Source: Phytophthora sp. 'mugwort' (Eukaryota; Oomycota; Peronosporomycetes; Peronosporales; Peronosporaceae). Taken from it: 64,000 bases of DNA. The stretch is taken from contig JAUCEF010000011.1 in the NCBI GenBank assembly GCA_033558025.1, positions 620,001 through 684,000 of the forward strand, written 5' to 3'. The notes under the pieces were generated by a model. That model searched no databases, had not been told where the DNA came from, and was given only the letters and a program-made list of their open reading frames with translations. The position numbers and the translations under genes were made by a program. The stretch's first letter is position 1. Each line of letters begins with the position of its first letter. Shown here one piece after another: positions 19,908 to 49,214 of this stretch.

Positions 19908-20034
19908 CGACGCAGCAGATTAAAGAAAGAGAGTAATTCGTGTGCCCACCTGATAATGGAGGGGGTAAACGTCACATAAAGCGACCAACGGAGGAGAGCG
20001 GTTGCGAGCGCGCGTAGCTACAGCAAACCCGCGC

Positions 20035-20167
20035 TGTCCGCGATAGCCAATCACCGTTTAGAGTAAATCAATGGCTGGGAGGTGCCGACACTTGACACCG
20101 TCCCGTCAATCAATCAGTCAAATTTGCCTACTGTATAAGCTAAGTAACGGGCCTTTACCCAGTTGCA
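20035..20167 (+). repeat. 5' LTR of forward Gypsy
   Basis: 133 bp, beginning TG and ending GTTGCA. It shares CCAATCACCGTTTAGAGTAA, CAATCAATCAG and AGCTAAGTAACGGGCC with the 3' LTR. It lacks a segment of about 16-19 bases present in the 3' copy. A CTGGTAGCA sequence directly after it could be a primer-binding site. Confidence 0.85.
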
Positions 20168-20202
20168 CCTGGTAGCACTTAGTAATCTGTCCAACAACCA
20201 AG

Positions 20203-21240: not shown

Positions 21241-21379
21241 ACCGGCGACACCCAGTAGGCGCGGGGCGTCCTACTGGGCATGGAAAGATAGACGGATCTC
21301 TGGTGGCAGATCCTCCTCCTAGCCCTCATGTGCTTCACGCACAACTCTCTGTCACCACCTCCGGCAGCGACTCGAGACT

Positions 21380-25890: not shown

Positions 25891-26067
25891 GTACCGGTGA
25901 CAGATCCGTGCGAGGGCGCGGCTGTCCGCCGCGCCTAGCCTCATACCAGGCCCTTCGGAAGAGCTCAATCACATCTCCCTCCGCGACTTCGAATCCAAAC
26001 GGACCGGCTTCTCTCATCTGAATTGAGCGGTGGTGTGACGGGCCTCTATCACACAGTTGCCATCGCG

Positions 26068-26219
26068 CTTCTGCGATATCCAATCACCGTTTAGAGTAAA
26101 TCAATAGCTGGGACGGTGTCGACACTCGACATCATCCCGTCAATCAATCAGAGTCAAATTTGCCTACTGGTTCCTACGTTAACAGTGTAAGCTAAGTAAC
26201 GGGCCTTTACCCGGTTACA
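26068..26219 (+). repeat. 3' LTR of forward Gypsy
   Basis: 152 bp ending GTTACA, followed by the CGCGC target duplication. The initial TG has decayed to CT. It differs from the 5' LTR by substitutions and at least two indels, so the insertion is not recent. Confidence 0.85.
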
Positions 26220-26224
26220 CGCGC

Positions 26225-26875
26225 GGGGTGCCCGCGAAGCAGGGCCGCGCGGTATTTGCGGGGGTGGGCCCAGCACCGAGCTTTCCAGCGAGCCGAATAC
26301 TGTAGCGGGCCGAGCTTAGAATCTTTTCCTCGCAAGAGTGCAGCGACTACACTCTCTCGTCCAAGTCGAAGCTCAACAATTCAACACAATGCGCTATCAA
26401 CTCTGTATCATCTTTTCTTGTTAAAAAATGATTTTGGGATAACAAGGATTTCACTCTTTGCCTGAAAATTCGTCCTAGTTTTGGTACAAAACCTAGGCCA
26501 TGTTGGGGTTTAAAGTCAGAGCCCGACTTGAATTGAATGCTAACCCCGTTCGGTCCCTTGTTGTTGTTGTCGCTGCAGCAGCGGCTACTGGCGATGGGTT
26601 CGTCGGGTATTCCCATGGTCACGTCGTACGAGTTCGTCAAGCGCGTGTGCCGCAAGCCGCAAAAGACGGACGCCGATGCCTAACTCCTGTATACCGTATC
26701 CACTCCAGTTTTTGCAGCCATCCTCTAGACCCAGAGAGAAGACACATAACGTCAGTTTATAGACTGACAACCCTTGTCTTGCAGCGGGGTCTTAAGCAAG
26801 ATTTATCTGGGTCGTGGCTTGCAGAGGACCTCTGGTTTTGCAGGGGGAAAAGGAGGTGATATTGTTTGTTGTCAG
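26225..26875. other. Spacer between the two Gypsy elements
   Basis: No gene recognised. An open frame of 102 codons on the minus strand (26347-26655) has no recognisable domain. The sequence was presumably continuous with the CRN flank before the forward Gypsy inserted. Confidence 0.35.
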
Positions 26876-27039
26876 CTATGCTTCGTAGGCCGACCTCGTT
26901 GGCTCTCGCTTCTTTAAAGAGAAAAGGAATCTGATCTTCAACCTTACCGGGTGAGACCAAACGAGCAGACTTTCCACGACGGCGTTCAGTTTGCTATTGT
27001 TGGCATCGGTAACATCGTCCGGTGGCGGCCAGTGTTGTC
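26876..27039 (-). repeat. 3' LTR of reverse Gypsy
   Basis: About 164 bp, sharing GGAATCTGATCTTCA, GAGACCAAACGAGCAGAC and CATCGTCCGGTGGCGGCC with the copy at 46144. The outer ends are approximate. Confidence 0.75.
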
Positions 27040-27436
27040 TCTCTGTCCCATGCTGTTGCCGCTTAGCATGGAAATAGTCTGCGAATGTTCACTTGTTGGT
27101 TGGTGGCACCGTAGCCGAGTGTCACCGTTCCGTTGTCATGCACTGCCGTGATTGCAAACGGTCTTTTGCAACTTCCCGATGTTTGTTTTCTTGGTCTTTG
27201 GGAGTTACACGCACATGACATGATCTCCGATCTGGTAGATATGTTGGATCCGCGTAGCGTTTTTCTCGGTCGTTATCTTTTAGGATTGCATCAAATCTCC
27301 GCTTGGTTAGATAACTTCAGTTCGCTTCATAGAGCTGATGAGTTATCGTGTCTTGGTCAAATATCAATTGTGTTGGCGTCGTTCCTAAAATAGTGTGATA
27401 GCTTGCCCGACTTGCGGACGCTGCGTATTGCATAAC
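27040..27436 (-). pseudogene. 3' end of reverse Gypsy pol (integrase C-terminus)
   Basis: Minus-strand reading from the target duplication gives QYAASASRASYHT, then LGTTPTQLIFDQD and a NIRR-type terminal motif typical of the end of oomycete Gypsy integrases. It is the continuation of the integrase at 42495-42993. Several stops are present. Confidence 0.75.
27431..27436. repeat. Left target-site duplication CATAAC
   Basis: Six bases directly before the left inverted repeat, identical to the six after the right one. On the minus strand they belong to the Gypsy integrase coding sequence. Confidence 0.95.
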
Positions 27437-27645
27437 AGTAGTGGGCAACAACCGTTTATCCTACCGTTTTTTTAATACATCGAACATAACCCGCCCAAGA
27501 GCTCCGTCTTACACAAAGTTGCACCCTTTCGCTGTGGAAGAGACAGAGCACCATTCCTATTGTTAATATTTATATGAGCTATTTTTGTTTTCGAGAATTT
27601 CATAGCATCGAACACAATTACCAGATAGTTCTCGAACCCTCACAT
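27437..27645 (+). repeat. Left terminal inverted repeat of Polinton
   Basis: Begins AGTAGTGGGCAACAACCG and matches the reverse complement of 42282-42488 with scattered substitutions and small indels. Shared blocks include CGTTTATCCTACCGTTTTT, CCCAAGAGCTCCGTCT, GAGACAGAGCACCATTCCTA and TCGAGAATTTCATAGCAT. Confidence 0.95.
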
Positions 27646-27664
27646 CAAAAGAGAGTACTCTAAA

Positions 27665-27783
27665 GCTATGAAGGAGTTAGAGCACCTATAACATAGTCAT
27701 TATTAAGAGGAAAATATTATATCGCTGTGAAGGAGGTAGAGCACCGATCATATAGCACAAATGAGGAGGAACAATATTTGAAT
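27665..27783 (+). repeat. Two tandem 59-60-bp units inside the left end
   Basis: Units 27665-27723 and 27724-27783 share GCTRTGAAGGAG, AGAGCACC, an ATAG and a terminal A/T-rich AGGAAMAATATT. The first 22 bases also occur once inside the inverted repeat at 27531-27552 (and its right-hand mirror). The left end therefore holds three copies of the motif, the right end one. Confidence 0.8.
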
Positions 27784-27891
27784 AACTTTTTCCATCCTAT
27801 TTAAACAGATGAATGTTAAAGATATAAAATACTACTACCACTTCTACTACTGAACAAGCAGAAATGTGTAATATCATTCTCAGGAATCGTA

Positions 27892-28167
27892 ATGTCTGCT
27901 CCAAAGCTCCGACAAAGTTTGCTGCATGGGAAAACATTCGATAGTTGTTTCAAATGCTGAGAAAGCTGAGAAGATATGCTCAATATTTTCAAAGCTGACC
28001 TCTATGAGGAGGTCTCATGTCCTTGCGGTTATATCGGAAAACGGTGGAACTACGCTCATCATCGGAAGACAAAAAGACATACATCATGGCCTTCATCGCT
28101 GCCAGAATCGGAGAACGGTCACGCTTGGAGATCTCCAACTCTTGAGGAGATAGAGAACTATAAATGA
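27892..28167 (+). pseudogene. Polinton small Cys/His protein, two in-frame stops
   Basis: ATG at 27892 opens a frame of 91 codons interrupted by two TGA codons near 27958 and 27967. The C-terminal half (from 27976) contains CPCGYIGKRWNYAHHRKTKRH, a CC-HH-like arrangement suggestive of zinc binding. First gene after the left end. Function unknown. Confidence 0.5.
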
Positions 28168-28267
28168 TAATGCGTAATCATTCAACCAATCCTTTTTTTC
28201 TCGAAATCTTGTGGTATAAGAAGGAAAAGGTTCCATATTTAACACTCGAATACTAAGTTATATAATC

Positions 28268-28548
28268 ATGGTTCAGCTATCGTTCAACTCAAAGTATGCA
28301 TTCATCGAAGACATGCTTAAGGATCGGACATATTGCATTCGATTGATGACATTTACTTGGTTTAAGGATCGGAGGAAATACCCGATCGTCATTACCAATG
28401 TGAAGGCGATCTTATCGGAGGTAATCAGGAGATAGAATGTTATGTACCTCGCGATAGGACTTGGTATCGTCCCGACAAGAGCTGTTGCTACACAACTGCT
28501 TTTGAGTATAAATGTCGGAGTTGTGGATATTACGAGATACGTAAATAA
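28268..28548 (+). pseudogene. Polinton small protein with C-terminal zinc-ribbon-like motif, one frameshift
   Basis: ATG at 28268 gives MVQLSFNSKYAFIEDML. A frame change near 28405 leads to IECYVPRDRTWYRPDKSCCY and a terminal YKCRSCGYYEIRK, half of a zinc ribbon. Downstream of the first small gene and in the same direction. Function unknown. Confidence 0.45.
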
Positions 28549-28621
28549 TCGGAATCAATTTTTTTTACCTGTCTTAACAAATGATTACTTCGTATATAGA
28601 TACTATTAATAATCTACAGAA

Positions 28622-28813
28622 ATGACTTACTCACCCGAGAAGTATCAATCCAACAAGGCAGCCATCGCAGCTGCGCAGAAGCGATATTACGAGAAGAACC
28701 GCGAACGGATTCTCGCTCGTCAGAAAGCGTACGATGAGAAGCATCGTGAGGAGATAAGCGAACACCAGAAGAAATACTATGTTAAGCGCGCTGGTAGGAT
28801 TGCTCTCGACTAA
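28622..28813 (+). CDS. Small highly charged Polinton protein
   Basis: Intact 63-codon frame rich in Lys, Arg, Glu and Tyr, with repeated KxYYEKNRERI / KAYDEKHREEI / KKYYVKR units that would form a charged helix. Such repeats occur in DNA-virus and phage proteins, often near DNA-binding domains. A related fragment lies at 17500-17706, which supports it as a genuine conserved Polinton gene. Function unknown. Confidence 0.65.
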   Translation: MTYSPEKYQSNKAAIAAAQKRYYEKNRERILARQKAYDEKHREEISEHQKKYYVKRAGRIALD

Positions 28814-28920
28814 ATACTAACTTTTTATCGGTGGATGGAAAAGTTTCTATTTAAAGCAAACCCTGATACAATATACCAAGTAGATAAACGAATATTTTAT
28901 CTTTTACCTCATAAACTCTC

Positions 28921-31900
28921 CATGTTGTCCTACTGACTCGATGCTCTCAAGCGACTTAATATCCAGTCAAGCGATGGGGTTCTTCCTTCCGTGTCAAGGT
29001 GAAGAACCAAAACGGTCGCGTCGTATATATCTCATCATTCGAGAAGGGTAAGAACCGCGAGCTTCTGTCGAAGCAGTACAAGCTCTCTGAGTCTCGTATC
29101 TCGAAACACTTCACGCCCAACTACAAGGAGCCTTCCAACTTCAGCTTTCGTAAGACCAAAGTCTATGATGAATACCTATACGAGAATCACTCGTGTAAGG
29201 ACATCATGTCCAACATCCGTTCTGTACGGGCTAAGGAAAACAAAGCCTTCAAGGCTCAAGTACAGCTCCGCTACAAGCTGGTCGATCGAATCACCGGTCT
29301 GGAGAGAAACTACCAGCCATCGACGAATACGGGTGTATTCTACAAGTTGATTCCAATCAATTCTAAGGCTGGTATGGAGAAGAGATCATGTCTGAGATAG
29401 AATCGAAGGATTTCACGGAGAGAATCAGCTTTCCTTCTTCGAGCTATCAGCCCAAAAGAGATTACCATGACTAAGATCATGATCTACAAGCGCGACCACA
29501 CCCTCGGAGATTCGGAGATTATCATCCCCGGGCTACAAGAAAAACAAGTTCATCACCAATTTTCCTAAGCCAAACAAGTGTGTATTTTACTGTATCGCCT
29601 ATCATCTTGAGAATGATGCTCGCGCCGATCAAATGATTGGACCGGTCAAAGACCGTGTATCAAGGAGTATTGTTCATACAAGGTTATCAAGTACTCTGCC
29701 AAGTTCTTCAATGCTACAACCTATCGATATCATGCAGTTCGATGAGCTGGAAGAATGTTTCCAACTCTCGATCAATGTGTTTAAGATGGATCAGAGAACT
29801 CTCGAGATTTCGAAGATTTCTGAATCTGAGAAGAGCTACGAAAACGTGATCAATATTCTCGACTACAAGGGACACGCCATGTAGATCAAGAACATTGACA
29901 CCATTCTCTCTAAGTATCCATGCAACGTGTGTGATGCTATCTTCACTACGTATGAGAATATTTGGAGCCACAAGAAGACGAAGTGTGAATTTGAGGTCCT
30001 CGAATCATTCCCAAGTGAACCAACCATATACCGGCCTCAGCAGAACCAAGTGAAGAATCTCCTTACCAAGTATCGAGTCAAGGATGTCGACCATACATCG
30101 ACCACTTCATCGTATATGATTTTGAAGCTATCTTGATGCCGACAGCTACTCAGCGTGGAGAGAGTACTATCTACACTAATAAGCATTATCCCTGTCTCGA
30201 TGAGTGTATGCGATAGTCTTACAAACGAGGTTCGATGATTTATCAATGAATCACCTATCCAACTACTTAGGGATATGTTCAATTATATTAGTGGAGAGAG
30301 CGATAGGATCGGACTATACAACGAACACAAGTTCATGCCTCTCATCGAAGCTATCGATGGTAAGATTAACTATCTGGCAAAGATGAACCCTGGAATCAGG
30401 GATGGAGTTAATTTCGGCAACATTAAGAAGATGCGTAAGGAGAAGCCGAAGCTGAAAGTATTTCTGGATAAGAACTCACGCTTTGGGAGAGAGATTGAGT
30501 CGATCGAGAGCATTATCTATCAAGCCCCACTCGTTGGCTTCAACAGCGGTAGCTATGATATCAACCTCATCAAGAATGATTTATTCGTTCTGGTGTTCAG
30601 AATATCAAGAACGTTATCAAGAATCCAAGCTACATGTGTATCTCAACTAATTCTTACAAGATCCTCGATATCTGCAACTATCTTCCACCAGGAACGAGCT
30701 ATGAATAGTATCTCGAAACGTATCTTGAAGCATGTGAATGCGGTGACAAGATTCGTTGCATCTGCGGTCTTGGCAAGGGGTTTTTCCCATACGAGCTCAT
30801 TTCTTCATTCAAAGTACTTAGTCAGACTTGCATTTCATCAAACAGAGATTTTGATAACGAGTTTCGAGAAACTGCCATCAATGAAGATGACTACGAGCGA
30901 GTCAAAATCGTTTGGGAACACTGTGGGATGAAGTCAGTGAAAGAGCTATTGATTGGGTACAACAATCTCGATGTCAAGTTATTTGTGAAGGCAATTCAAG
31001 CTCAACGTGAATGGTTTAAGCAATTGACCTCGACATCTTCACTGATGGTGTCAGTCTCCCTGGTCTATCCGAAAAGGTTATGTACCAAACCTGCTTCAAG
31101 AACCTTGAGAAGCCACCAATGCTTGCAGCGGCACCGTTCAACTTCCTTGAGCAGCGGTACAACGGATATTATGACCAAGACAAGAAGGCTAAGCGCGATG
31201 TTGTAACGACTATGCAGCATTTCGATAAGATTACTGAAGAAGCAGAAGTTTCTATACGGACTCTGTTACTGCCAGCTAACGCTTGAGACTGCATCTGCCG
31301 ATCGAATCAACATCAAGCTTGGACATGAAGATGGCAAGGTGTCCTCATCGGTTGCATTTCTTGCAGTGTAGCACGTAAGGATATACCTCTGAAAGCGTTC
31401 AGATACAAGAAGTTACTCGACTTCAACAGCAACAAGCTTGTTTACTCAATCGACGCGGAAGAGAAGGAGATCTACCACAAGGTGAAGGCTAACATCGTTG
31501 GTGGCCTATCAATCATATTCAATCGATATGCCAAGCGCAACGAGACGAAGATTCGTGGCGGAAAACTCTGTAAGAAGCTCATCGGATACGATGCTAATGC
31601 CATTTACCTTTAGTTCTCGGGAATGAGATGCCATACGGACGTCTCACAATGATCGAGGCCTATGAAGGAATCATCGATGATATCGAGGCTGACAAGATCT
31701 TCGGTTTTCTCGAGTGTGATACCAGAACGCCAGAGCACCTCAAAGACTACTTCTCAGAGATGACTCCCATCTTCAAGAATGTTGAGATCGACTGCAACGA
31801 TGAGAACATTATCGGATCTCACATGTACGAGTACAACCAATCCCGTGAGTCAAGTCGCGCAAAACTGGCTCGCAAGCTGATTGGAAGCTACTTCGGCGAG

Positions 31901-32859
31901 AAGATCCTGATCTACACATCTCTGGTCAAGTGGTATATGGAGCATGGCATTGAGATCAACAATACCTACAGCTTCATCGAGGCAAGCTCTCACTGCGCCT
32001 CTAAACCATTCATGGAGGAAGTCTCAAACGCTCGTTCGCGAAGGTGATGCTGATAAGAAAAAGGCAATGATTGCTAAGATGATGAAGCTGGTCGGCAACA
32101 GCGCTTTCGGTCTGGTATGGACAAGAGCAAAGACAAAGAGGTTAAGTATGAAAGCTCCGACGCAAAGGTTAAAGCCCTCATTGAGAAGCACAATTTCCAC
32201 GATGTTGAGGAACTGGCTGGCTCATACGAGGTCAGGCTCAAGAAGCGCCGCATCAAGCTCAACAGCCCGATCCATCTCTCGATCGCAATCTATTAATTAG
32301 CTAAGCTGCGTATGCTCCAATTCTACTACGACTACATCGACAAATCTTTCGATCGCTCTGACCTTCAGTATCAACAATAAACACTAATAGTGCTTAACTC
32401 GCCTTCAGCTGTGAAAATCCTTCAGCGAGGTAATCAAGCCGGAGCTCCAGGATCACTGCCAACACAAGTACGAATGGTTTCCTCGCGATCAGACTCGGAA
32501 GTACCCAAGTTCGACCGTCGTACACCTGGCCTGTTGAAAACAAAGTCGTCGGGTGAGCTGTGATTTCGCTATCATCCAAGAAATACATCTGCAACATGCC
32601 AGATGAGACATACAAGGTTAAGGTCTCTGCCAAGGTTCTTCAGCAGGGTCGCGGTGGCAACAGTGATGTGTTGAACCCTGCTGGATTCGAGTTTGTTGTC
32701 AATGACATATCACTCTCTCGGGAACGAACAAGGGCTTCCGTATCTGTAAGGAGAGCAGAGGTATTATCACCTACACAGCAGAAGGCTCCTCTGAATCATT
32801 GGTACGACAAGCGACAAGAGCTCTCGGATGGGGTTTCAACGATTCCTCTAGAGATCTAA
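28921..32859 (+). pseudogene. Protein-primed DNA polymerase B of Polinton, inactivated
   Basis: Replicates the element in intact relatives. The N-terminal extension (28999-29990) contains FPKPNKCVFYCIAYHLE, a Cys-containing segment common in this position, then a CxxC...HxxxxxC finger near 29920. Exonuclease motifs: YDFEA at 30115-30129, FNSGSYDINLI near 30540, YNNLD near 30958. Polymerase motif A is GYDANAIYL at 31584-31610 and motif B is KLVGNSAFG near 32090. Motif C, normally DTDS, reads N-T-N-S at 32380-32391. The C-terminus has LNHWYDKRQELSDG. Premature stops include TAG 29882, TGA 30236, TAG 30706 and TAA 32294, with several frameshifts. About 1,300 codons originally. Confidence 0.9.
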
Positions 32860-32912
32860 AAGTGCTGTAAACACATATCCTTTTTTGCTCGATCTATATA
32901 TAGGTGGCTACG

Positions 32913-33960
32913 ATGGAACTACTCTCCAAGCTCTTCAACGATCCCAAAACAGGTTTCGCGGTGTCCAGAGCCTGTATGAGAAGGCTAAAAGCATCGACAG
33001 CTCAATCGGTCTCAAGGATATGAAATGGTACGCGAGCAACTCCGATACGCTGATACTCAACAGTTTCAGGATCAGCGACGCCGCTTCGATCAGTTCCACA
33101 TCGCAAGCAACAATCCAGATTCATGGCAGATGGACTTAACTTTCTGAGAAGGGAGAACGCTACTCACAGCCGTCAATATCAATAGTCGATTGGGGTACGT
33201 AGAGCTAATCCCCAACAAACAAGCAGACACCGTTCTGAGAGCTCTCAAACGTTTCGTAAAACTTCACAAACCGAGCGTTATAACGAGCGACAACGGATCT
33301 GAATTCATGAATCAACAAGTCCAAGAGCTATTTCAAGAAGTCGAAATTACTTATTTCAACAATGAACGTGGGGAACACTCAACGATGGGGAAGAGCGATA
33401 CAATCGAACGATCAAGCAACCTTGCTGCGTTCAGGGCTTACTCTAAGCAAGCGATTAGTATCCGACTTGATTGACACCTACAATTTAGCTCAGCATAGTG
33501 CCATTGGCATGACTCCAAATGAAGCGAGAGGAAGCGTCATTCAAGTGGAGCTCGATCTTAATCAAAAACTACAATAAATTCACTACGGGTGAGCAGTTGT
33601 TTATCGTCTGAAATCGAAACAATTTGGTAAGGAAACAGCGAAGTGGAGTACTCTCGTCTATGAAGTTGCAGGAATGGATGGATATCGCATCCAAATACGC
33701 TTCAAGAACGACCACGTGCTTTATAAGTCCCCCCAACGAGCTCAAACGCGTCAAGCTTGCTATCGCGGATACGGATGTTGAACCTGGTCAGATATATGAA
33801 GCGGAGGCGATTCTGAATCATAAACAAATGCACAGCGGCAAGTACAAATCTTTTATCAAGTGGAAAGCGTATGACGAGCCGTCATAGGATAGTCAGGACA
33901 GTCTCCGGCTAATCAACAAAAATGATGTGAGCACGCTGGAGAAGCAGTACTGGGGTACAG
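32913..33960 (+). pseudogene. Polinton retroviral-type integrase with chromodomain, frameshifted
   Basis: ATG at 32913 (MELLSKLFNDPKTGF). The rve core is split over frames: a QMDLTF segment with the likely first Asp, NINSRLGYVELIPN, VITSDNGSEFMNQQ with the second Asp, and HSTMGKSDTIERS with the Glu. Then GMDGYRIQIRFKNDHVLYKS and a C-terminal chromodomain EAEAILNHKQMHSGKYKSF with KWKAYDEPS. A TAG at 33885 stands where the chromodomain usually has Trp. Chromodomain integrases of this kind are known from Polintons. It follows polB closely, and overlaps a small reverse-strand gene at its 3' end. Confidence 0.85.
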
Positions 33961-34157
33961 ATCAAGCTTCGCCGGAGGCGGTCATCTGACTGGCTTGGAG
34001 GCGCCAATCGCGCAATTTCAATTCGTGCTGTCTCAGCTCGTCTCCTAAGCTCTACATATTTTTTGACAATAAGTTGAGCTTCTTCCTCATCATCAGTGTT
34101 GTCATAGACTCCAGCGGCATCAAGAGCATCGTATTCTATGTACTGGATCTCATCCAT
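33909..34157 (-). CDS. Small acidic-to-basic Polinton protein
   Basis: Start ATG at 34157 (MDEIQYIEYDALDAAGVYDN), 82 codons, acidic N-terminus with DDEEEAQ, then a charged helix VKKYVELRRRAETARIE. It is divergent from the gene at 34202 and its 3' end overlaps the integrase 3' end. Not recognised. Confidence 0.45.
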   Translation of the reverse strand: MDEIQYIEYDALDAAGVYDNTDDEEEAQLIVKKYVELRRRAETARIEIARLAPPSQSDDRLRRSLICTPVLLLQRAHIIFVD

Positions 34158-34201
34158 TGCAAAAATATTTGGTGATATATATAGATAGCGATAAATTTGA
34201 T

Positions 34202-34537
34202 ATGAGGAAATGCCAAGCAACCACTAAAAGCAACGTTCCGTGCTCTCGCAATGCTCTCAAAATAGGGTATTGCTTTCAGCACGATATAGATAAACAGATC
34301 GTTATGTACCGCAGGGAGCTCGCGAAGATGCCTCAGCGAGTCAGGCGATACATTGAGATAAGCAACGATCTAAAAGAAAAGCTTGATGTAGTACAGAAAC
34401 TCGACTACATCAAATCGGAACTGATCAAAATTGGTGGCGATAATCATTCATATCGAGCAATTATCGATAGTCCGTTCTTTCGAGGGCATATTGAGAAACT
34501 ATTTGATATGACAGCCGTGGAGGCTCGAGATGAGTAG
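34202..34537 (+). CDS. Small Cys/His-motif Polinton protein
   Basis: Intact frame of 111 codons from ATG 34202 (the reading frame is open further upstream). It starts with a C-x9-C-x10-C-x3-H motif (CQATTKSNVPCSRN...YCFQHD), a small zinc-knuckle type seen in viral and transposon proteins, then a predicted helical region. Divergent to the reverse-strand gene by 44 bases. Role unknown; possibly nucleic-acid binding. Confidence 0.6.
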   Translation: MRKCQATTKSNVPCSRNALKIGYCFQHDIDKQIVMYRRELAKMPQRVRRYIEISNDLKEKLDVVQKLDYIKSELIKIGGDNHSYRAIIDSPFFRGHIEKLFDMTAVEARDE

Positions 34538-34693
34538 GATCGATTGCTCACGAGGCGAAACGCTCTCATCCATCCACATACTTGTGATCGATGGAGATTC
34601 CATAAATTTACCACTAACCAGTATTCTTAGTAAAATTATATATTGAATATTTTTAGTCAATACCATCTCTGCTATTGTATAATCAAAAAAAAA

Positions 34694-35203
34694 ATGTTTC
34701 CGTCATTCTCTAGTCTATCACAGCGCGAACGCAAGCGACAAGAACTACTCCACAACGCTGAGCGCGAGATATCTATCGATAATCATCTAAAGCAACGATA
34801 TGCGGAGATGATGTGGACCACTGATAACGAAGCGAGCATAATTCCGATAGCATCAAGCATGTTATCGACTGGAACTCAAACAACTACATCAGAGAACAAT
34901 TCAGCTCAGACGACTACATCTACCATAGGTGAGGATGAGAACCGCCAGATGAAAACTTACCAGGCAATAGTCGATTTGTTCAAGCTCCAGCCTGACCTCG
35001 CATCATGGGATCTTCATCCAATGTTTGATCCGTTACTGGTAACTGATGCTAAAGCGAAACGAGACATGTACTTCCTGGGCCCTGACGCTAGGATTTATTA
35101 CCGATCGTCTCGGATCGCCGTTCGAAACGATAAGCAAAGTGAACTTGTCGGTATCACGCTTGGGAAGCTACTCTCGAGTACATCCTCACCTGAAGTAGAT
35201 TAG
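34694..35203 (+). CDS. Polinton protein of unknown function
   Basis: 169-codon frame from ATG 34694 after an A-rich stretch. Basic helical N-terminus (RERKRQELLHNAEREIS), a Thr/Ser/Gln-rich middle and a C-terminal globular part with FLGPDARIYYRSS. It ends in TAG at 35201; the same frame continues after the stop with WMVRFELESYERNRLLYALRS, so the protein may have been longer. Its position before the capsid cluster matches the unassigned PX/PY-type genes of Polintons. Confidence 0.55.
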   Translation: MFPSFSSLSQRERKRQELLHNAEREISIDNHLKQRYAEMMWTTDNEASIIPIASSMLSTGTQTTTSENNSAQTTTSTIGEDENRQMKTYQAIVDLFKLQPDLASWDLHPMFDPLLVTDAKAKRDMYFLGPDARIYYRSSRIAVRNDKQSELVGITLGKLLSSTSSPEVD

Positions 35204-36190
35204 TGGATGGTCAGGTTCGAGCTCGAGAGCTACGAGAGAAATCGTCTGCTCTATGCACTGCGTTCAATGCGCTGAAGAATAACGTCGGTAGTGAGACGCT
35301 GGGTGAGAGTCGCTCCGCTCTAAACTCGATCATCAATCAAGCTATTGATGAGAATATGTCAAACGACTCGCGAACTGATGATATCGCTCAAGAATCGAAA
35401 AAGCACTCATCAAAGTCATAGAAAACAGCAGAGAAGGTCGTTAAGAGTAAGCTCCTGCATAGCTTCAATGGCAAACCTGGGTTCTATACGGGGGACGCTC
35501 GGATAATCTTCAGGGATTGCCAGAGCCACTCAGTGAATATTACATCGATTCAACCAATTTCAAGCTCCGTCAAATCTCGAATCATCGTCATCCGATAAGA
35601 AAGAGCATTCTCTTCTATCATCCCCAACACTCTCCAGTTTCTCTTCCAAAGCGCTCAGAACCGAGCAATCGTACTGGGTACTAGCGGAACCGAGATAAAA
35701 TCAGCAATAAAACGACCACTCGAGGATAGCGCTGTATCTGGCTTAACCATCGATCAAAAGCGACCGAACCTCAACGAGCTGAGTCGATCGGTTGGGAGCA
35801 ATTTTGATATGGTCGAGGCCGTGGTGATTATAAGAAGCTCGTTCAAGATCTATACACAGATAATCCTTGGTTGCTTCGAGAATATTTACCTCTGGCAGTA
35901 TCGAAGCTGAATAAGCAATACGATTCGAGTGGATACTACCTGGACCTATTTGGCGGTATCGTCGGATCAAAGCCAAAACCAGAGACGGCACGTCGGTGAC
36001 GAATCTGACAGAGGATCCGCTTGCTACGGCGGAAGCGTTGACTCGTATGGATCTTAGCTGGCCTCTAACCTTTCAAGGTGTTATCGAATATCCAACCCAG
36101 GCTGTGAAATACTACAACGATAATCCTGACAAGATCGAGAGCATCGATTCGGACCTCAGCTTCAGCAAATCCACGATAGTTTGAGAAAGT
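35203..36190 (+). pseudogene. Polinton ORF remnant(s) of unknown function
   Basis: Three reading frames with coding character succeed each other: 35203-35600 (with LNSIINQAIDENM and FNGKPGFYTGDARIIFRD, broken by TAG at 35419), about 35690-35995 (SAIKRPLEDSAVSGLTIDQK, then YTDNPWLLREYLPLAVSKLN after a frame change), and 35996-36184 (LTRMDLSWPLTFQGVIEYP). They may be one or two genes. No known domain recognised. Confidence 0.45.
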
Positions 36191-36191
36191 T

Positions 36192-36860
36192 CAATATTAT
36201 TATCCCGAGCGATGGTCCATCGATTGATATGATTCTTGAGATGAAACCAGCCGTAACCGAGCGGGGCCTCCTGATGCTGGATACGTTAATAAAACCCGAT
36301 CCAGTATCACTCCAACGGGGGCTATAATCTCACGCAGCTGGAGGGCACCGGTTCCTACTCAGCGCTGGTATACAAGCGGATTGGGACTAAAATTTGTCCA
36401 TCTCCCGAAGCTCAATGAGTGTCTCCTAAACGTAGTTTATCGTAATTGCTTAACCGTCGGAGCATATCGCGAAATTTGTAAGGCTTTGTCGGAGCTGATC
36501 AAGACTCTGGTATTCGATGGCTCCATCAACCAGCAGCTGTATGAATCACTGTCCATGGATGACAATGAGTCTTTCATGAGCTGCTTCGTATCACGCATAC
36601 TCAGCACGCGCTACGCGATCCGATCAAGGATCCACGCGATGTACTCACGCAAGAGTACTTGAAGCTGAAGGGAGAGCTCAATGCTCGGAAACGATATCCC
36701 GTCGTGATTCGTGAGCTCAAGCGAGTGCTCGTGGAAATGTACAACATCTCCTGGGCTATAAAAAAAAAAAAAAAAAAAAACCAATAGAGCGTCGATTATC
36801 CTGCTTCCAAGTGAAGGCGCAGGCGCATCGCAAGCACTGTATCTAGACCATATAGGATAT
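36192..36860 (+). pseudogene. Polinton ORF remnant of unknown function
   Basis: Reads as TERGLLMLDTLIKPDPVSLQ, then in another frame LPKLNECLLNVVYRNCLTVG and EICKALSELIKTLVFDG up to 36660, and in a third frame VLTQEYLKLKGELNARKRYP until an A21 run at 36760. Convergent with the fibre-like gene. Not recognised; possibly a virion protein, given its neighbours. Confidence 0.45.
36760..36780. repeat. Homopolymer run of 21 A
   Basis: A21 near the 3' end of a rightward Polinton gene and between convergent genes. It is not followed by a target duplication and is not evidence of retroposition. Confidence 0.85.
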
Positions 36861-36863
36861 CGT

Positions 36864-37893
36864 TTATATCCTTTTTGTAATCGTGGTTGCACTCGAACTA
36901 CCGCGAACCCCCTGCTCCATCTGATAGTAGCTGACGATGTTCATAGAGGCTGAATATGTCATATTATCGTTTTGGATCACGAGAGCTTTGCTCGTGCTTC
37001 CTCCTGAAATCGAGAGGTATCGAAGACCAATGATACCATAACCAGCGTCCACGACCAGATCCTTGCTTGGTTCAACCTCACCAAGCGTTGTCAGTGATCG
37101 AGGAAAGAGCGATAGATGAGCTTGGGTACCGTTGACGTATAGGCTCGTGCAATTGAATGATCCGATCACATCGAGCTTATAACTTGTCGAAGCTCCAACA
37201 ATTGAGATGTTTCCTGATGCATCCATGAGCAATCGATCGCTATTACCATACCTAATGAAGAATCTATTCGCTTCAGAGGCGTGAGCGGACCCGCGTACTC
37301 CAATCTTGCATTGATAGAAGCTCGCGATGTTTATAGAGGCTGCAGATGCCGTATTATCGTTCTGGATTACGAGAGACTTGTTTTGAGGAGCCTCTGGTAA
37401 TCGAGAGGTAGTGGAGGCCAGATATAGCATACTCGGTATCAGCGACCAGAGTCTTGCTTGGCTAGACTATACCTAAACTGGTCGACAACCGGCTGATATC
37501 GTAAGCAACGCCATCCTGCTTGTACAAGATAGATTCGATGCTGTTGAGAGTCGCGATCGCTTTGTTAAAATTCAATATGATAGCCTTAGATGGTGTTGCT
37601 TGACCGGCTAGGCTGATAGTAAAGATAAATTGCTGAGGTCGAGCCATTGAGAATGAGTGATACACAATCGAGAGAATTGATAGCTCCAATGTCTCGATTT
37701 GAATCGACAACGAGAGCTGACATGGGTGCTGCTTCTCCCAGCGTGGTCCCAGAAATAAAACTTAATCTATAGTCAGTCTTGCTAAGAAATAGGGCGTCAG
37801 CCATCTCGAGGCTCAAAACGTCTGTTCCGCTCGCATAGTAATTTGGATTAGAAGATTGTTGATTCTTGCGAGGGAGGACGAGCTGTAAATCCC
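36864..37893 (-). pseudogene. Repetitive fibre-like Polinton protein, frameshifted
   Basis: Read leftward from about 37893 with two or more frame changes. It consists of repeated modules: PSKALVVD-type segments (variants PMSALVVDSNRDIGAINSL, PSKTLVADTEYAISGL, PSKDLVVDAGYGIIGLRYL), each followed by YLSI, then LVIQNDN, SASxNI, YQ and GVRGS. Such short beta-rich repeats with polar turns resemble virus tail-fibre or adhesin proteins; this is inference from pattern only. It lies beside the ATPase and capsid genes on the opposite strand, divergent from the ATPase. The open C-terminal part is 36864-37430. Confidence 0.6.
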
Positions 37894-37950
37894 ATTACGG
37901 TGGCTTGATTTTTTTATATATATCATTGAATATACTTTCAGAGCTTGCGG

Positions 37951-38633
37951 ATGACGAAGCAAATTAATAACTGGGGAGCAGCACTCCCAAAAAAGTACCG
38001 TTCAGACTCTGTCGGTGATATTAAGGCGTTTGGAATCAAGAGACTATTTCGAGGAATCATTCTTGCGCCTTCCAACGCGGGAAAGACCAGTCTCGTCTTT
38101 CATATCGTTAAGAACAGCCCTAAAGGTTTTAGCCATCTACATATCATCGCCCGCAACCCTGATCAAGAACTATACAATTATATGAAGGACAAATTGAATG
38201 GCTTCATGGCTGTATGAGCCATCACTCCACCGTCGGTTGATGATTTTCAGAAAGATTCCAGGGGTGGCATCCAGCTCGACATCATTGATGACTGCAGCTC
38301 GGATATATAAGAAGCTTCAGAAGGATCTCTTCAGCCGTCACTTCATCCGCGGTCGCCACAAATGGTTCTAACACTCTTTCTGACGCATTCGTGGTTCAGC
38401 ACGGACAAGTTTATTAGGCTCAACTCGAGTACCTCTGGATCCTCAAGGCGAACAGCAGACGAGACTTAAGAATGGTCATCAGCGACTTCAGTCTCCTAGG
38501 AATTACGCTTGAGAAGCTAATTAGCGATTACAATGAAGCCACTAAAGAAAAGGGTCAAGCATTGCTGACCGACAATGTTAGAGGCGTATTGAGATATAAT
38601 TTTAACGAACATGCAATTCGTTTCAGTGATTGA
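37951..38633 (+). pseudogene. Polinton genome-packaging ATPase (FtsK/HerA, A32-like), frameshifted
   Basis: ATG at 37951 (MTKQINNWGAALPKKY). Walker A is ILAPSNAGKTSLVF near 38065-38100 and Walker B LDIIDDCSSD near 38275. Then FLTHSWFSTDKFIRLN carries the sensor-like region, and the C-terminus reads DLRMVISDFSLLGITLEKLI and ends at 38633. At least three frame changes and a stop after FMAV (38215) inactivate it. In related viruses this enzyme pumps DNA into the capsid. It precedes the capsid genes. Confidence 0.8.
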
Positions 38634-38647
38634 ATATACAAAAATCA

Positions 38648-39104
38648 TGTCGAATATCATTACCCTATCTACCCGCCATATCATTTCCAATAGATTTAAC
38701 AATGCTCCGATACGAGTTCCCTGGCAGCTCTGTCGAGTTCGTCAATACCGAAATTGCTATCCACAGCATCAACATGTATAATTCTCAATTCAACATCGAC
38801 TCCACTTCATATGGCAATAATTCTTTCAAGATTTTGATGCCAACCGGCAATGACTACTCGACGATCCAAATCGTACTTCGTGACGGATATTACAGCTATG
38901 CCAATATCAATGCATCGGTTCAAGCAGCGACGATGAGCGCCGGAGCGTACCTGATCAATGCTGATGGCGACAATGTGTTTTATTTTAATTTGTCTGAGAA
39001 CCCTACATTCTACTCCTGTCAGGTTGATCTCTCGCCTGGGCCGACGACCTTTTTCGGGCTGGTCTCGACCGCCTACTGGGCTATACTCGGACAGTGGCTC
39101 TGGA
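38648..39104 (+). pseudogene. Polinton minor capsid (penton-type) protein, truncated
   Basis: ATG at 38648 (MSNIITLSTRHIISNRF), 15 bases after the ATPase stop. After a frame change it reads YEFPGSSVEFVNTEIAIHSI and NMYNSQFNI, the characteristic start of Polinton minor capsid proteins (single jelly roll, penton vertex). The similarity fades at about residue 140, around CQVDLSPGPTTFF, while family members are about 230-250 residues. A deletion seems to have fused the gene to the end of the convergent neighbour. Confidence 0.65.
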
Positions 39105-39615
39105 TTACCGCTTGGGTTCTTGTACCCCATCTCCGGAGAACCCTTGGCTCAAGCGTCGGGAGGGTTTAGCCTCGGCAACTCCGACTCCTGTAAATTTCTT
39201 CAACGCTTGGCGAGCAACGCCGACGAGAGCCGAATCGCGACTCGTCGATGCTATGTACGCAGATACTATGCTGGCGGTCCGTCTGCGGCAGTCGATAGAG
39301 CAGGTTTGATTACTGGTTTTCAAGCACGCTTGAGGCCAGCCCAGATGGTTCTCCATGCTGACGAACCTTGAAGACTGCCCCCAATAGTTTCCATTGGGTA
39401 CTCAGTCTCGCGCGGCGTAATACTGATGCGAACGCCTCTGTTAGCCTTCTTAGCTTTCACAACCTTAGCGTACGATTCTGGTGTAATTGCAGAGTTGTGC
39501 CAGAGCCAGCCAGATCAGCTTTGGTCAGCTACAGGAAAAGGTTGCCAGACTGGGCAGCCCTAAGGAGGCGAGCCGCTGGGATAGCATAGGAAACGGATAG
39601 GTCCTTGTAAAGCAT
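39105..39615 (-). pseudogene. Small basic Polinton virion-type protein, frameshifted
   Basis: Leftward reading from ATG 39615 (MLYKDLSVSYAIPAARLL) through LTKADLAGSGTTLQLHQNR, then KKANRGVRISITPRETEYPM and a final alanine/serine-rich basic part ending VQEPKR. The order TK-G-LxLxxxQ followed by a KxGxxIxIT segment recalls a conserved small protein found beside capsid genes in Polintons and related viruses (from memory of the family; not verified). Two frame changes and a stop are present. Confidence 0.5.
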
Positions 39616-39653
39616 GATTGATATATTAGCTTGAGAGTTATAACCTCAAAAAA

Positions 39654-40028
39654 TTAAATAACATTAATATCCAAATCCATGAACCTATCCATTAGGTGTA
39701 TTGTTTTGTGATGGCGGCAGTAGAGCCACACGAGGCACCGGACTCCACAATATTCAGCTGTGGAAGCTTCGATCTGCCTGTCAAACTACGGGAGATTTCC
39801 TAACGCGGTCGGAGGTGGGACGCCCATGCAATCGAAGTAACTACAATCACATACAGCGACCCAATGTCCGACCCCAGGGCTCGTTCTAAGCAGTACCAAA
39901 TGGCTTCCCTTCGCGGGGAGCGGGCGTTCGATCTCGGAAAGCTCGACTATGTCATCAATCCGTACTCCGATGCGCTTGCTCAGCTCGATTAGATCGTGAT
40001 CAGAGGTGACACCTTTGACTAGCTCCAT
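39654..40028 (-). pseudogene. Polinton adenovirus-type cysteine protease, one premature stop
   Basis: ATG at 40028 (MELVKGVTSDHDLIELSKRI), 124 codons to TAA at 39654. The catalytic His lies in VGHWVAV near 39864, followed by YFDCMGVPPP; the catalytic Cys is in AEYCGVRCLVWLYC near 39745. This is the order of the C5/ULP1-like maturation proteases that cleave capsid proteins. A TAG at 39786 interrupts the frame between the two, otherwise the reading is continuous. It is divergent from the major capsid gene, with 46 bases between start codons. Confidence 0.8.
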
Positions 40029-40074
40029 TAATTATTTTCTCACCTGATTATATCAGCCGCAATGTACTTCCAGC

Positions 40075-41850
40075 ATGTCCGACACTACCCAATTAGCGAA
40101 CGCCTATTTACTGCAATAAGCCCTCAAATCCGAGGCACCCGTCAATGTATCTAAGGGTAAGTCCATATCAGTCATCTATGATGGCAACCAGGGATCGTAC
40201 AACTCGAGATTGATCATGATTGATGCTACCTCGCAGCTAACAGGCTCATAAGGATATGCTAGCCTAAAGGATGGCTACCTTTTACTACCGTATGTTATAT
40301 TACTGCTAAGAGCACCGGCAATGCTGACCTCAACAAGAGCACTATCTCTAGATTTGCGTGTGCGCTCAATGTAACGTCACCAAGGTCGTCGACTCTCTGA
40401 CTGTCGAACTCAACGGTAAAACAAAATGTCACGGAATCTGAATACAAAGGCTTTTGGAATAACCTACGAGCGATGAGTGAACTTTCTCAGGATGAGGTGG
40501 CAAAGCATGGGGCTAACATGCATTTATATCATGATACGTGGTCAGGTATCAACTTTAGTGGACGGGCGATGGCTACTCAAACAACCAGATTGGTGTGACA
40601 TCGCCAGACGACACAACGTTATCTCAAGCCCAGGAGCCGTGGGCATACAGCAGTGGGTTCTTCAAGCGTCTGCGAACACTCCCGCTCCCGTTGACTCTAC
40701 TGAGGCCAGTGGACCTTCTCGTGGGCCTCGTTCGGTACTACGGCTACCAAACAGATCCTTCAGCAGAACGGGCGCGGCTGTTTTAAGGAGTCGGATGTAA
40801 CCTCGTTTGGCAACGACAAAATTGTTGGTCACTGGTTTCATATGCTAAAATCAAGCTCATAGATCTACACTCCATTTTCAAGGAAATCGATATTTGCGCT
40901 AATCCACAGCTAAAGCTCCGCTTGCGTATTAATGCTGTTACGGTTGCTCTATCGGGTACGACTTCGACTATGAAGCTCGACTCGACCACGATGACCTCCG
41001 GCAGACTGTTCCTATCATAATTGCCTCGGCTGCAGCTGCTGCTAAGTCTGTGGCTAGTGACACGATCACTCCAGCCGCGCCAATGAACGATGTACTGGTG
41101 ACTGTTGGTTCTCAGCTTTCATTCTCATTCGGCCCGATTGGCAACGCATTCACGTCTACCAGCCCGGTTGGCGAGTATTTCCCATTCACAACCAGCCGTT
41201 TAATGACCCCCTTCTATCATTTACGCAACCCGACATCTATCATCCAGAAGCCGGTGAAGACCGTTCGCTACCAGGGCTGTTCCGCCCAGATGTTTCGCAA
41301 GGGCACTAGTACGTCTCTGCGTCGCCTACTGGCCAGTTAAAAAATGCTCCTTTCGATCTCGACATTTTTGAATACAAGAAAAATGTTAATTTCGTGGCTC
41401 TTATCCCGTTCGCTGAGACGAGCGCTGGCCACTTCGCCACTCAGCACGGCACGCCGCAGTATCAGAGTCCCTTCTAGTGATCCCTCGACTTGCATGCCTG
41501 GGTCTAGCATCCATAATTTCCAGGTAACCATCGGTGACACAAACGTGTTCGATAAGAGCCAGGAGTATGATTTTGAATCCTTCCGCCGCGAGTTCAGCAA
41601 ACTGGGAGCCATTAATGGAGATCTCAGCGGTGAGATCTTAAACGGATTGATTGATTCACAGCAGTGGTCGATGGCTCAACGCATCCTCGTAGCTGACTGT
41701 TCGTGTCTCACACAGAATGAGGTGCCTCAGGCCATTCAGGTGTCGAGAATCAACAGCTCGGCGACCGGCATGGATCTGCTCGTGCTCATTATTTACGAGC
41801 GAGAATTTGAGATCGACCGTCACATGGGAAACGTTCATAGAACTGATTGA
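40075..41850 (+). pseudogene. Polinton major capsid protein (double jelly roll), broken
   Basis: ATG at 40075 (MSDTTQLANAYLLQ, then TAA). Joined across frames it contains KSISVIYDGNQGSYNSRLIM, an alanine-rich central part near 41035, SFGPIGNAFTSTSPVGEYFP at 41130, FDLDIFEYKKNVNFVALIPF near 41350, and a conserved C-terminal region with VFDKSQEYDFESF, INGDLSGEILNGLID and LLVLIIYEREFEID. This C-terminal pattern matches Polinton major capsid proteins, whose trimers form the icosahedral shell. Length about 590 codons, with stops and at least three frameshifts. Confidence 0.8.
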
Positions 41851-41923
41851 ACACCTCACGTTGAATGCTAATTAATTAAATTTAATTAATAGAAATGATC
41901 TGGCTACCTGTATAGAGAGCATA

Positions 41924-42234
41924 ATGAGTACATTAAATTTTGGAAAGCATTAGTCAATGACTATTGAGGAGGTATATGCCTCTGATCCAGGATACTCCGC
42001 TGGTTATCGAATCAAAAGAGTTTCGTTGAATGCAGCAGTGATATTGGCAAGTTCCTGGATTAGAAACTTAGCAATGATGGATCATACATCATGTCGTGGG
42101 GAAAATAACGCAATAAGACGATTAAACAGATCCAAACCATTGACCCTGATTACCTTGAATAGTTGAGTAAAAACGACTTCGTTAAGTCGAAGATTCCGAA
42201 GCTGAAGATTGAGGTCGATGAACCCCTGAAGTAA
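41924..42234 (+). pseudogene. Polinton DUF3820-like protein, broken
   Basis: ATG at 41924 gives MSTLNFGKH, a TAG at 41951, then SMTIEEVYASDPGY; after a frame change FLD-TAG-KLSNDGSYIMSWGK, IQTIDPDYLE-TAG and DFVKSKIPKLKIEVDEPLK. The LNFGKH...TIEEVxxxDPxY pattern, repeated twice, is that of small DUF3820-type proteins found in many viruses and phages. Last gene before the right inverted repeat. Confidence 0.6.
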
Positions 42235-42281
42235 GCGTGTTGATATTTTTTAATTAATTCAGCAAAATATTGTTCCTCTGG

Positions 42282-42488
42282 ATATGAGGGTTCGAGAATA
42301 TTTGGTGATTGTGTTAAATGCTATGAAATTCTCGAAAATAGCTCATGAATATTAGCAATAGGAATGGTGCTCTGTCTCTTCCACAGCAAAAGGGTGAAAC
42401 TTTGTGTGTAATGGTATAGACGGAGCTCTTGGGCGGTTTATGTTCGATGTGTTAAAAACGGTAGGATAAACGGTTATTACCCTCTACT
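42282..42488 (-). repeat. Right terminal inverted repeat of Polinton
   Basis: Reverse complement begins AGTAGAGGGTAATAACCG. It corresponds to the left repeat over about 207 bp. The two copies differ at roughly one base in ten by eye. Confidence 0.95.
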
Positions 42489-42494
42489 CATAAC
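42489..42494. repeat. Right target-site duplication CATAAC
   Basis: Exact copy of 27431-27436 immediately after the right inverted repeat. Confidence 0.95.
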
Positions 42495-43648
42495 TTGTCT
42501 GCAGTTTATGTCCGGATTGCATCGGATACAGTTGTTCAGCTCCAGGTGTACACGTTCACAGATTGCATTGGCTTGAGGATTCTTGGCCGAGATTGGCTTG
42601 GGCCTAATACCATAGCTAGCTAGCATATCTCGAAATTTACTAGTATTAAACTCGTTGCTGCGATCGAAGACGACTTCTTTCGGGCGCGGATATCGACATA
42701 TCCATCCAGGCTGCATCAAAATTCTCTGCAGTAGTTTTTCCACGATTGCCTTGTTGGATCGAGACTTCCAGCCACCGCGTTGCCTCGTCGATCACCGTGA
42801 GCGCATACTGGCGATCGTTACCGTACGGCCCCATCGTGTCGAGCTGAACTACATTAAAAGGATCGATGGTGTTCATGTCTCGAGGTGGTAGCTTGTCATA
42901 CGCTTGAGCTCTTCCATGTAGCTTAGCGCGCTTACATGTCATGCTTTTCTGCACATATTCTACCACTGATCTTTCCATTCCATTCCAGACCAATAGAATG
43001 TGGGCTTCATCATGTGATATTGGCGCTTAGCTCCCGGGTGTAGAAGGTTGTTGTGATACCATTCTACAAGCTCGCTTCGTAGTGCTTCCGGATTAACAAT
43101 TCGTTTCTGGTAAGTTAATAATCTTGAACCCATCACATTCAGAATCTGATAGTCGGGATCATTGGAATTGTTCAGACACGAACGATTATCACTTGCAAGG
43201 CTTCATCTTCATGTTGGTGTTGCTTGATGTATCCATCATCCACAACACAGTCAACTGATTCAATAAGTAAGGCCTCAAGCTCTGCATCTTGTCTCCAAAT
43301 CCCCGCATATTTCATTCGAGAAAACGCGTCTGCCGCAATATTGGCGCGTCCTTGCATGTATTAATATGTAAGGTTGTACTCTGATAGTACTAACTTCCAC
43401 CCTTTCACTCGCAACAAGTTTCTCCATAGGAAATACGAGGTTTTTGTGGCCCGTGTGAACTACTACTGGAAATCAAAGTAGCATTGTTCTGTACTCCTCG
43501 AGAATCTCCACTACCGATGACAATTTCAGTTCCATAGTAGTATAGTTTCTTTGCGCTGGTGGGAGACTTCGGGAATAGCATGCAAACAATTTCCCTGTTG
43601 TTGGATCTGTTCTCCAACTTGTTTTCCGCTCGCGTCTGCGTAAAGCCT

Positions 43649-43657
43649 GGGGGGGGG
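43649..43657. repeat. G9 run in RNase H region of reverse Gypsy
   Basis: Nine Gs then AGGG on the plus strand, where the minus-strand RNase H frame changes. It has the same G-then-AGG form as the run in the forward Gypsy gag. Confidence 0.8.
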
Positions 43658-45377
43658 AGGGACAGTAGAACGGCTTTTGCCAATGCCTTCTTAATTCCTT
43701 CGAAAGCTTCGCTCTCCCCTGATGTCCAAACAAACGCTGCTTTCGGTGACGTCAATCTTGTCAACGGCTTTAATAACGCCGATTTGTTCGGCACCATTTC
43801 CCGGTAATAATTAATGGTCCCGAGAAATCTACGTATTTTTCGCTTGTTCTATGGCTTCTTCAGCTGGGTTTTGGCGCGGATTTTCTTTTCTTGGGGCTTA
43901 ATCCCGTCAGAGCTGATAGTAAAGCCTAGATATTCCACACTTAGACAGAAGATATGGCATCTTGTCGTTTAGTGTCACGTTGTATTCTTGCAGGCGAGTG
44001 GATATAGCCCGCAGGTGTTCCAATTGATCTTCCTCTGTCTTGGAAAAGATGAGATTATCGTCTAAATAAACGATTACGAAATCCAATTCTCCCAGGATTT
44101 TTGACATGCACGCTTGATTCTCATCTGGCGCTGTTGATATATATCCCCATGGGTAGTCTTTTATATTAAAACTTGCCAAATGTCGTCATAACGCTGTCAG
44201 CGGTCGGCTTATTTTTGTCAACTGTCTAGCCTAATTAATGTTCCATGTTCGCGTCGAGAGACGAATTTTGCTCCACCTAGACGTATCAACACTTCATGAA
44301 TGAGAGGGACGTAGTACGGGTGTCGCTTCAGGAACTTATTCAACGCCTTGAAATCCGTCAACAATCGAAGTCGCCCATCTGGCTTCTTCAAAAAGAAAGC
44401 TGGAGATGCCCAGTCACTATCGTAGATCTGTTCCAACACGTCCAGCTTAATAAGACGCTGGATCTCTTCTCGTGCAGCCGTTTCTTCACTTCTCGGCGTC
44501 GGGGACGGCCTAGCATGCACGGGTGTGGATTCCTCTGCCATGGACAGAATGTAATCTGGAAACTTCATACACCCCAAGTGCCCATTTTACAACTTCTGGA
44601 AGTGAGTAAGTAGCGCAATAATTCGATCGTACGTGGACTGATCAGTTTCTGCTGTTCTAACCATTTCTTTCTGGTCTCACTGCCGTGTCGTTGATTTACT
44701 TCAGTGGTGCTCACATCAGACTCGCCGTCGGCCTTCTTCTGGACAGCACCCGTGTTGACAGCCACTGTGTTGCCGTTCCATTCAATAGTTCCATCTCGAA
44801 AATTAACTATTATTCCCAGTGCGTTCATCAGGTCTCGTCCAATGACCATCTCGTCCTTCGCGTTCTTAATGACGGGAAATGTGTGCGTAATGCGCGTACC
44901 ATAGTTTAAATCCATAAATCGAAACTTCACTGAAATTGAGCATTCAGCATCCACGAAGCCCTCGACCTGCTTATAAATCAAGTTCGAAGGGGATATCTTG
45001 AACCCGCACTTCTGATTTGCTGCTAGCACTTCTGCATTGCAATAACTCGTTCTGCAGCCCATGTCCACCAAAGCGGCACGTTCATCTTGCGTCTTTGACA
45101 GGCGGAAACGAAGACTCATCTGCGGCTTCTTAGCTGGCTTCGCCCTCAGAACGTTACTGATGGATTTACACTCGCTCTCGTCGCTGAATGCGTACTCCGA
45201 GTCCGAATCTTCCATATACGTCTTAACCTCCTCTGTTTTTCTGGCTTGGTATGTCCGCTGACTGTTGCCATTCATGGCGTTCTTCTTCTGGGTAAAACAC
45301 CCGCTGTCACTGTGGACCTTCGTATGGTATAAGTTGCACCATTTATCACCATATTGCTTGTCTCGTACTTGAACTTG

Positions 45378-46120: not shown

Positions 46121-46143
46121 ATTACTTGCTTTTGTCTTGTTAT

Positions 46144-46309
46144 CTATGCTTCGTAGGCCGACCGCGTTGACTCTCGAAGCTTCTTCAAAGAGAAAAGGAA
46201 TCTGATCTTCACCTAACCGGATGAGACCAAACGAGCAGACTTTCCACAACGACGTTCAGTTTGCCAACGCTGGCATCGGTAACATCGTCCGGTGGCGGCC
46301 AGTGTTGTC
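46144..46309 (-). repeat. 5' LTR of reverse Gypsy
   Basis: About 166 bp, a diverged direct copy of 26876-27039. Sequence to its right (after 46310) is unrelated to that next to the left copy, marking the element's edge. Confidence 0.75.
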
Positions 46310-48716: not shown

Positions 48717-49214
48717 GGCGCCATCGTACGCGCTGGCCCATAACGTGGTGGCCTTGGCCGTAGACGTCGGGGTCTGGCGTAAATCGCAGCCAGGCGTTCA
48801 ACGCGCCTAAGGCACCGCCCACAGCCACGGCCGCCAACTCTGAGTTGCCGATCGTGTCCTGATCCTGCTGGTTGCCCTGCACGCGAACATGTTCCACAAC
48901 GGCGACCGCTTCTTGCACGAGGAGAGAGGACACGCGCTCACGGAGGGAGTCGGGCGGGGCGGAGGTAAAGCTCAGGGTCGACTCGTACTCCTAAAGCTAA
49001 GCAGGCCGCGACGCTGCAGCTCGCGGCAGTCGGCCAGAAAGCTCTAATTGATGTACCCTAATTCATACATGGAATGCACGTCGCATGGCCCCGACCAGGT
49101 TGTTTTCCGGTCGTTACGCCTCTTGAACGGCTGCCTTGAAGCTCATTTCACTTGCACGCGTGCATCTGACGACCGATCACGGCCAGGCTTTTGTTGCACG
49201 GTGCGTGTGTTGAC

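Follow-up and report, generated by a model that had tools for sequence, protein, structure and literature searches.

A decayed virus-like element of the Polinton/Polinton-like virus kind inserted in a Gypsy retrotransposon of Phytophthora sp. 'mugwort'

Ends of the element and the interrupted Gypsy copy

The window analyzed is a stretch of 64,000 nucleotides from Phytophthora sp. 'mugwort' (contig JAUCEF010000011.1). A virus-like element of 15,052 bp spans its positions 27437 to 42488. On both sides it is flanked by the hexamer CATAAC (27431..27436 and 42489..42494, no strand assigned), read from the sequence as a target-site duplication with 6/6 identical bases. The left terminal inverted repeat is at 27437..27651 (plus strand) and the right one at 42276..42488 (minus strand). 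The left end reads AGTAGTGGGC and the right end, on the opposite strand, AGTAGAGGGT. The arms, ~213–215 bp long, matched in five ungapped pieces with 87–95% complementarity, and by blastn were 84.0% identical over 219 columns with gaps counted. Of the first 215 alignment columns, 183 were ungapped, and 13 of these differed (10 by transition, 3 by transversion). The inverted match scored 227.0 bits at the real ends, whereas 197 random places in the window gave no more than 22.9. The element thus has terminal inverted repeats and a 6-bp target duplication, as Polintons/Mavericks do, and the base-exact ends given in the preliminary description were confirmed.

The outer ends of sister copies in the same genome often share AGTAGTGG. 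Three elements kept both outer ends. The duplication was identical at 6/6 bases in the window element and at 5/6 in a second copy (TGCGAG/TGCGAA), while no matching duplication was recognized by eye in the third, so the rule of a 6-bp duplication is drawn from few copies. The remaining family copies were rearranged or had one end missing. Separate left-type and right-type arm repeats, seen in a first arm tree (support 0.995), were dropped. The six sites diagnostic of the arm types were all at alignment columns 227–240, the inner edge of the repeat, and both window arms clustered weakly (0.716) when the alignment was cut to 215 columns; nothing is therefore claimed from this tree.

The element lies in a Gypsy retrotransposon on the minus strand. 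The upstream part of the Gypsy copy, with gag-pol remnants, is at 42489..45377, and the downstream part of its integrase region at 27040..27436. As had been proposed, removal of the element and one duplication restored the integrase frame, ...ERVHLELNNCIRCNPDINCRQVM | QYAASASRASYHTILGTTPTQLIFDQD..., with 58 stop-free codons on the right, counting the duplication; on the left, the frame stays open for 37 codons until it meets a stop.

Empty sites, whose search had been recommended, were found in three other Gypsy copies. The right (42489–43488) and left (26800–27436) flanks were searched separately in the same genome. On contig C17 they matched back to back on the minus strand, the right flank at 183314 (87% identity) and the left at 183311 (83%), and likewise back to back on C16 (82% over a short right part, 77% left). 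With 140 bases of joined flanks, the three copies were 91% identical over 138 columns, 78% over 133 and 70% over 132, the junction being gap-free in all. The empty paralogues have the duplicated hexamer once, in the variant forms CATAA-A or GTAAC. A 132-aa frame, ...ERVHLELMNSIRCYPEGDWWQVIQYAAFVVGGSNHSILGTTPAHLIFGQD..., crosses the corresponding point in a fourth Gypsy copy, L048, which is more distant. The empty paralogues and this frame identify the target as a Ty3/Gypsy integrase gene, interrupted behind its catalytic core.

The domain evidence came from paralogues. The paralogue L046, 85–87% identical to the upstream part, had RT_RNaseH_2 (E = 5.8e-20) and Integrase_H2C2 (E = 2e-16) above the Pfam cut-off. 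L048 had the same two domains, plus a sub-threshold rve match. In both, RT-RNaseH and integrase followed each other in the pol order of Ty3/Gypsy elements. The window's own Gypsy pieces scored under the Pfam cut-offs, and the window Gypsy itself is damaged, with a change of frame in the integrase upstream of the insertion site. A direct repeat of 174 columns with 90.2% identity (26869..27039 and 46137..46309, minus strand) is probably the LTR pair of this Gypsy, a tentative assignment; neither TG..CA ends nor an LTR target duplication were recognized in it by eye.

Targeting of Gypsy elements by the whole family was considered and rejected on the left flanks of two other copies, one of which was single in the genome and the other part of a repeat found at 40 or more places.

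Elsewhere in the window, a second Gypsy-like stretch was found at 20000–26100 on the plus strand (G + C ~0.6; RT_RNaseH, E = 3.3e-31, at 23624–24424). Host-like ORFs with DUF726, F-box-like plus leucine-rich repeats, ankyrin repeats and tetratricopeptide repeats were at 47874–63722. Rfam and tRNA scans within the window found nothing.

Gene content of the element

From the replication genes, we detected a PolB pseudogene (29786..32421, plus strand; tblastn with oomycete relatives), presumably of the protein-primed type. It is broken by stops and split among four or more frame segments, and its identity was given by PF03175 on 11 of 89 rows of oomycete relatives. An rve integrase core fragment was found at 33148..33471 (plus strand; Pfam PF00665, E = 1.6e-8, 35.2 bits against a cut-off of 32.6), with a chromodomain hint below the cut-off at 33612–33884 (E = 0.022). 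Both PolB and integrase had been listed as recognizable, and both are. Besides rve, the only Pfam family above cut-off on the element's open pieces was DUF5763, in a small ORF at 34157..34537 (plus strand; PF19067, E = 3.5e-7, 30 bits against 26.3). The first open piece of a putative gene is at 34634..35203 (plus strand). It is longer in a sister copy (L013:6646–7995), and neither version had a Pfam family above the cut-off.

A major capsid protein (MCP) pseudogene with several stops and frame changes was recognized at 40075..41847 (plus strand; tblastn with P0001, E = 3e-170 over residues 1–590). The 72 related proteins found were from oomycetes where named, the rest being from unnamed metagenome sources. 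A packaging ATPase pseudogene at 37951..38630 (plus strand), with one frame change and two stops, was 69% and 76% identical to P0073, a carrier of PF04665; a PDB profile search with the ATPase gave nothing useful. The preliminary description had made capsid and ATPase subject to an HMM test. The answer to it was mixed: Pfam gave no capsid, ATPase, protease or minor capsid match on the window pieces, but both genes were recognized by other means, the MCP by tblastn and the fold of P0001 and the ATPase by homology to relatives with PF04665.

A putative minor capsid (penton-like) gene (38630..39169, plus strand) adjoins the ATPase and is cut by a deletion at 39125. A 123-aa piece gave an all-beta predicted model of low confidence (mean pLDDT 53), and the gene had no Pfam match and no PDB profile match of note. 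A putative cysteine protease fragment (39789..40031, minus strand) has a GHW...YFD..G motif, and the sister copy L016 has Q...CGVWC at this gene; we take these motifs to be those of a cysteine protease. No Pfam match on the window pieces and no PDB profile match at E up to 10 was found for it, so that the protease, also listed earlier as recognizable, is so by motif.

On the minus strand, a fibre-like gene has left a Peptidase_S74 (endosialidase chaperone) remnant at 36732..36912 (tblastn, 52–83% identity), broken by two deletions. In sister copies the domain had E = 5e-11 and 3.9e-11. Repeat-bearing, shaft-like ORFs at 36922..37894, with a 150-bp internal direct repeat (74% identical), are probably part of the same gene. 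An ORF at 39105..39401 (minus strand) shares, by eye, a stretch with an unnamed sister-copy gene of ~200 codons.

One capsid piece, searched by tblastn, had no match in the phage collection. Scans of viral_contigs gave 3 (capsid ORF), 73 (capsid alignment) and 7 (ATPase alignment) pattern matches; none was confirmed, and absence there thus says nothing about wider distribution.

A gene-content definition of Polintons is quoted in PMC7805220: pPolB, RVE, MCP, mCP and ATPase. Of these, the window element has rve above the Pfam cut-off, PolB as a pseudogene, a double jelly-roll MCP by homology and the fold of its relative, and an A32-like packaging ATPase by its relatives.

Related copies and decay

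The genome has 86.26 Mb in 154 contigs. In it, the capsid search gave at least 89 matches (74 of 462 candidates scored) and the ATPase search at least 154 (150 of 241 candidates scored). Twenty stretches around other matches were compared, and 18 contained parts of the window family, at 11 loci besides the window. At the family's loci there were 16 capsid rows, the longest stop-free match among those listed being 143 residues. A second capsid lineage had at least seven rows with near-full frames, stop-free over residues 4–586 of the query with 47–48% identity. Outside the window, at ~2.34–2.51 Mb of contig C12, capsid and ATPase matches recurred at 26.4-kb and 29.3-kb steps, a spacing that would fit tandem duplication of a segment with virus-like genes.

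Compared with its sister copies, the window copy lacks sequence at three internal points: 434–461 bp at 36742–36777 (5/5 fetched stretches holding both sides), 1,046–1,056 bp at 36882/36883 (6/6) and 253–542 bp, mostly 470–490, at 39125/39128 (7/7). Since these segments were common to all copies, including one more diverged, loss in the window copy is the simpler reading. In total, ~2.0 kb of the fibre-like gene and of the ATPase–protease interval are missing. The 15-kb element can therefore no longer be called full-length. Likewise, the claim of a nearly complete map stands for capsid, ATPase, PolB and integrase, but not for the fibre gene, which is a remnant, or the putative minor capsid gene, which is cut. 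One other copy with both ends was 16.1 kb long, with gaps of its own, and lacked stretches present in the window copy; no intact family copy was found among those compared. In the sister copy L027, a 1,318-aa open frame (3326–7279) is flanked by pieces that match positions 13758 and 13754 of the window element, suggesting that this copy in turn carries a nested element.

The Gypsy must be older than the virus-like element it contains. Divergence between the arms is 13 in 183 ungapped columns, and the presumed LTR pair has 13 mismatches in a 174-column alignment. The two divergences are indistinguishable: the element followed the Gypsy closely in time, unless the sample is too small to tell.

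Origin of the element and relation to known systems

Very probably, a Polinton or Polinton-like virus (PLV) element inserted in the Gypsy copy behind the integrase core and then decayed. A linear double-stranded DNA form, which PolB would have replicated given the gene set and what is established for such elements, may have been joined into the Gypsy copy by its own rve integrase, just behind the integrase core on the minus strand. A staggered cut would have produced the 6-bp CATAAC duplication. Afterwards capsid, ATPase and PolB gathered stops and frame changes, and the three internal deletions removed ~2.0 kb. The capsid and ATPase genes may be signs of a packaged stage in the element's ancestors; the window copy is now a fossil.

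An assembly chimera is extremely improbable as the source of the junctions, as a mis-join would not be expected to leave an exact 6-bp duplication, ends matching those of sister copies and gap-free empty sites in three paralogues. Nearly as improbable is that some genes were kept by the host, in an antiviral or other role, instead of decaying neutrally. Such antiviral roles are suggested for some protist elements in PMC12220804, none of them for the element here, and stops or frame changes interrupt its MCP, ATPase and PolB alike; the 143-residue limit on stop-free capsid matches among the 16 rows at family loci also argues against it.

Polintons/Mavericks of animals are reportedly the subject of Pritham 2007 and Kapitonov 2006. 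That the element is a Polinton in this strict sense (Polintoviricetes or adintovirus-like), as the wording of the preliminary description suggests, is unlikely, though better placed than the two readings above. Its gene content of PolB, rve, MCP and ATPase, its inverted repeats and its 6-bp duplication would fit, and the top match of the capsid fold in the viral structure library was an Adintovirus protein. The Foldseek E-values of adintovirus, virophage and MELD capsids were close together, however, so the fold does not decide the group. PolB, rve, packaging ATPase, capsid, inverted repeats starting with AG and the 6-bp duplication are shared with animal Polintons as portrayed in passages of PMC4028283, the protease by motif only. 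Unlike in those, the capsid relatives here were oomycete and metagenome proteins, with no named animal element among the 72. Oomycete capsids are moreover placed in the Gossevirus group, apart from animal Maverick-Polintons, in the relevant parts of PMC7805220 and PMC10120064. The label Polinton thus holds by gene content, whereas the capsid belongs with those of oomycete PLVs.

The Polinton-like virus reading also agrees with the host, as the best named MCP, ATPase and PolB relatives were from Phytophthora and other oomycetes, and the Gossevirus group has stramenopile hosts. With the oomycete PLVs of this group, as outlined in the same two sources, the element shares the host, a distinct double-jelly-roll MCP group, ATPase and inverted repeats. 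Many of them have a cysteine protease, present here as a motif, and unlike them the window copy is decayed and ~2.0 kb short. It is placed in the group provisionally, by host and homology. Peptidase_S74 on the fibre-like gene of sister copies resembles the endosialidase-chaperone fibres of PLVs noted in PMC12220804, with the difference that the window copy retains a remnant only.

Oomycetes are already known to carry such virus-like elements. The sections of PMC7805220 cited here list 15 oomycete elements with Gossevirus-group MCPs, four of them with both RVE and pPolB, seven with inverted repeats and three with duplications of 5–7 bp. PMC10120064 gives up to 299 MCP copies in a single oomycete genome, nearly always of the Gossevirus group, and PMC8204020 lists fragments of Polintons and Gypsy elements next to each other in Phytophthora parasitica, each as far as the portions cited go. 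A title and abstract search of the literature did not find a Polinton nested in a Gypsy in Phytophthora, and we do not claim such nesting as unreported. Mavirus-like virophages are said to lie beside retrotransposons in Cafeteria (Hackl 2021, cited by PMC10120064 and PMC12220804). Virus-like elements and retrotransposons are nested there too, with the retrotransposons inside the virophages, and inside PLVs, in passages of PMC12220804, whereas here the virus-like element is inside the retrotransposon.

Existing knowledge of the oomycete virus-like group is unchanged by the window element. The clean nested insertion and the empty paralogous sites establish the family's ends and 6-bp duplication at one locus, and the order of events is given: Gypsy first, virus-like element second. 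The family lets the decay of virus genes be followed copy by copy. Chances are about even that traces of two or more waves of related virus-like elements are preserved in this genome: an earlier one, the window family with its Polinton-type gene set, and another represented by the second capsid lineage. The window copy would then be a fossil of the earlier wave, and datable, with its arms and the Gypsy LTR pair as brackets on its age.
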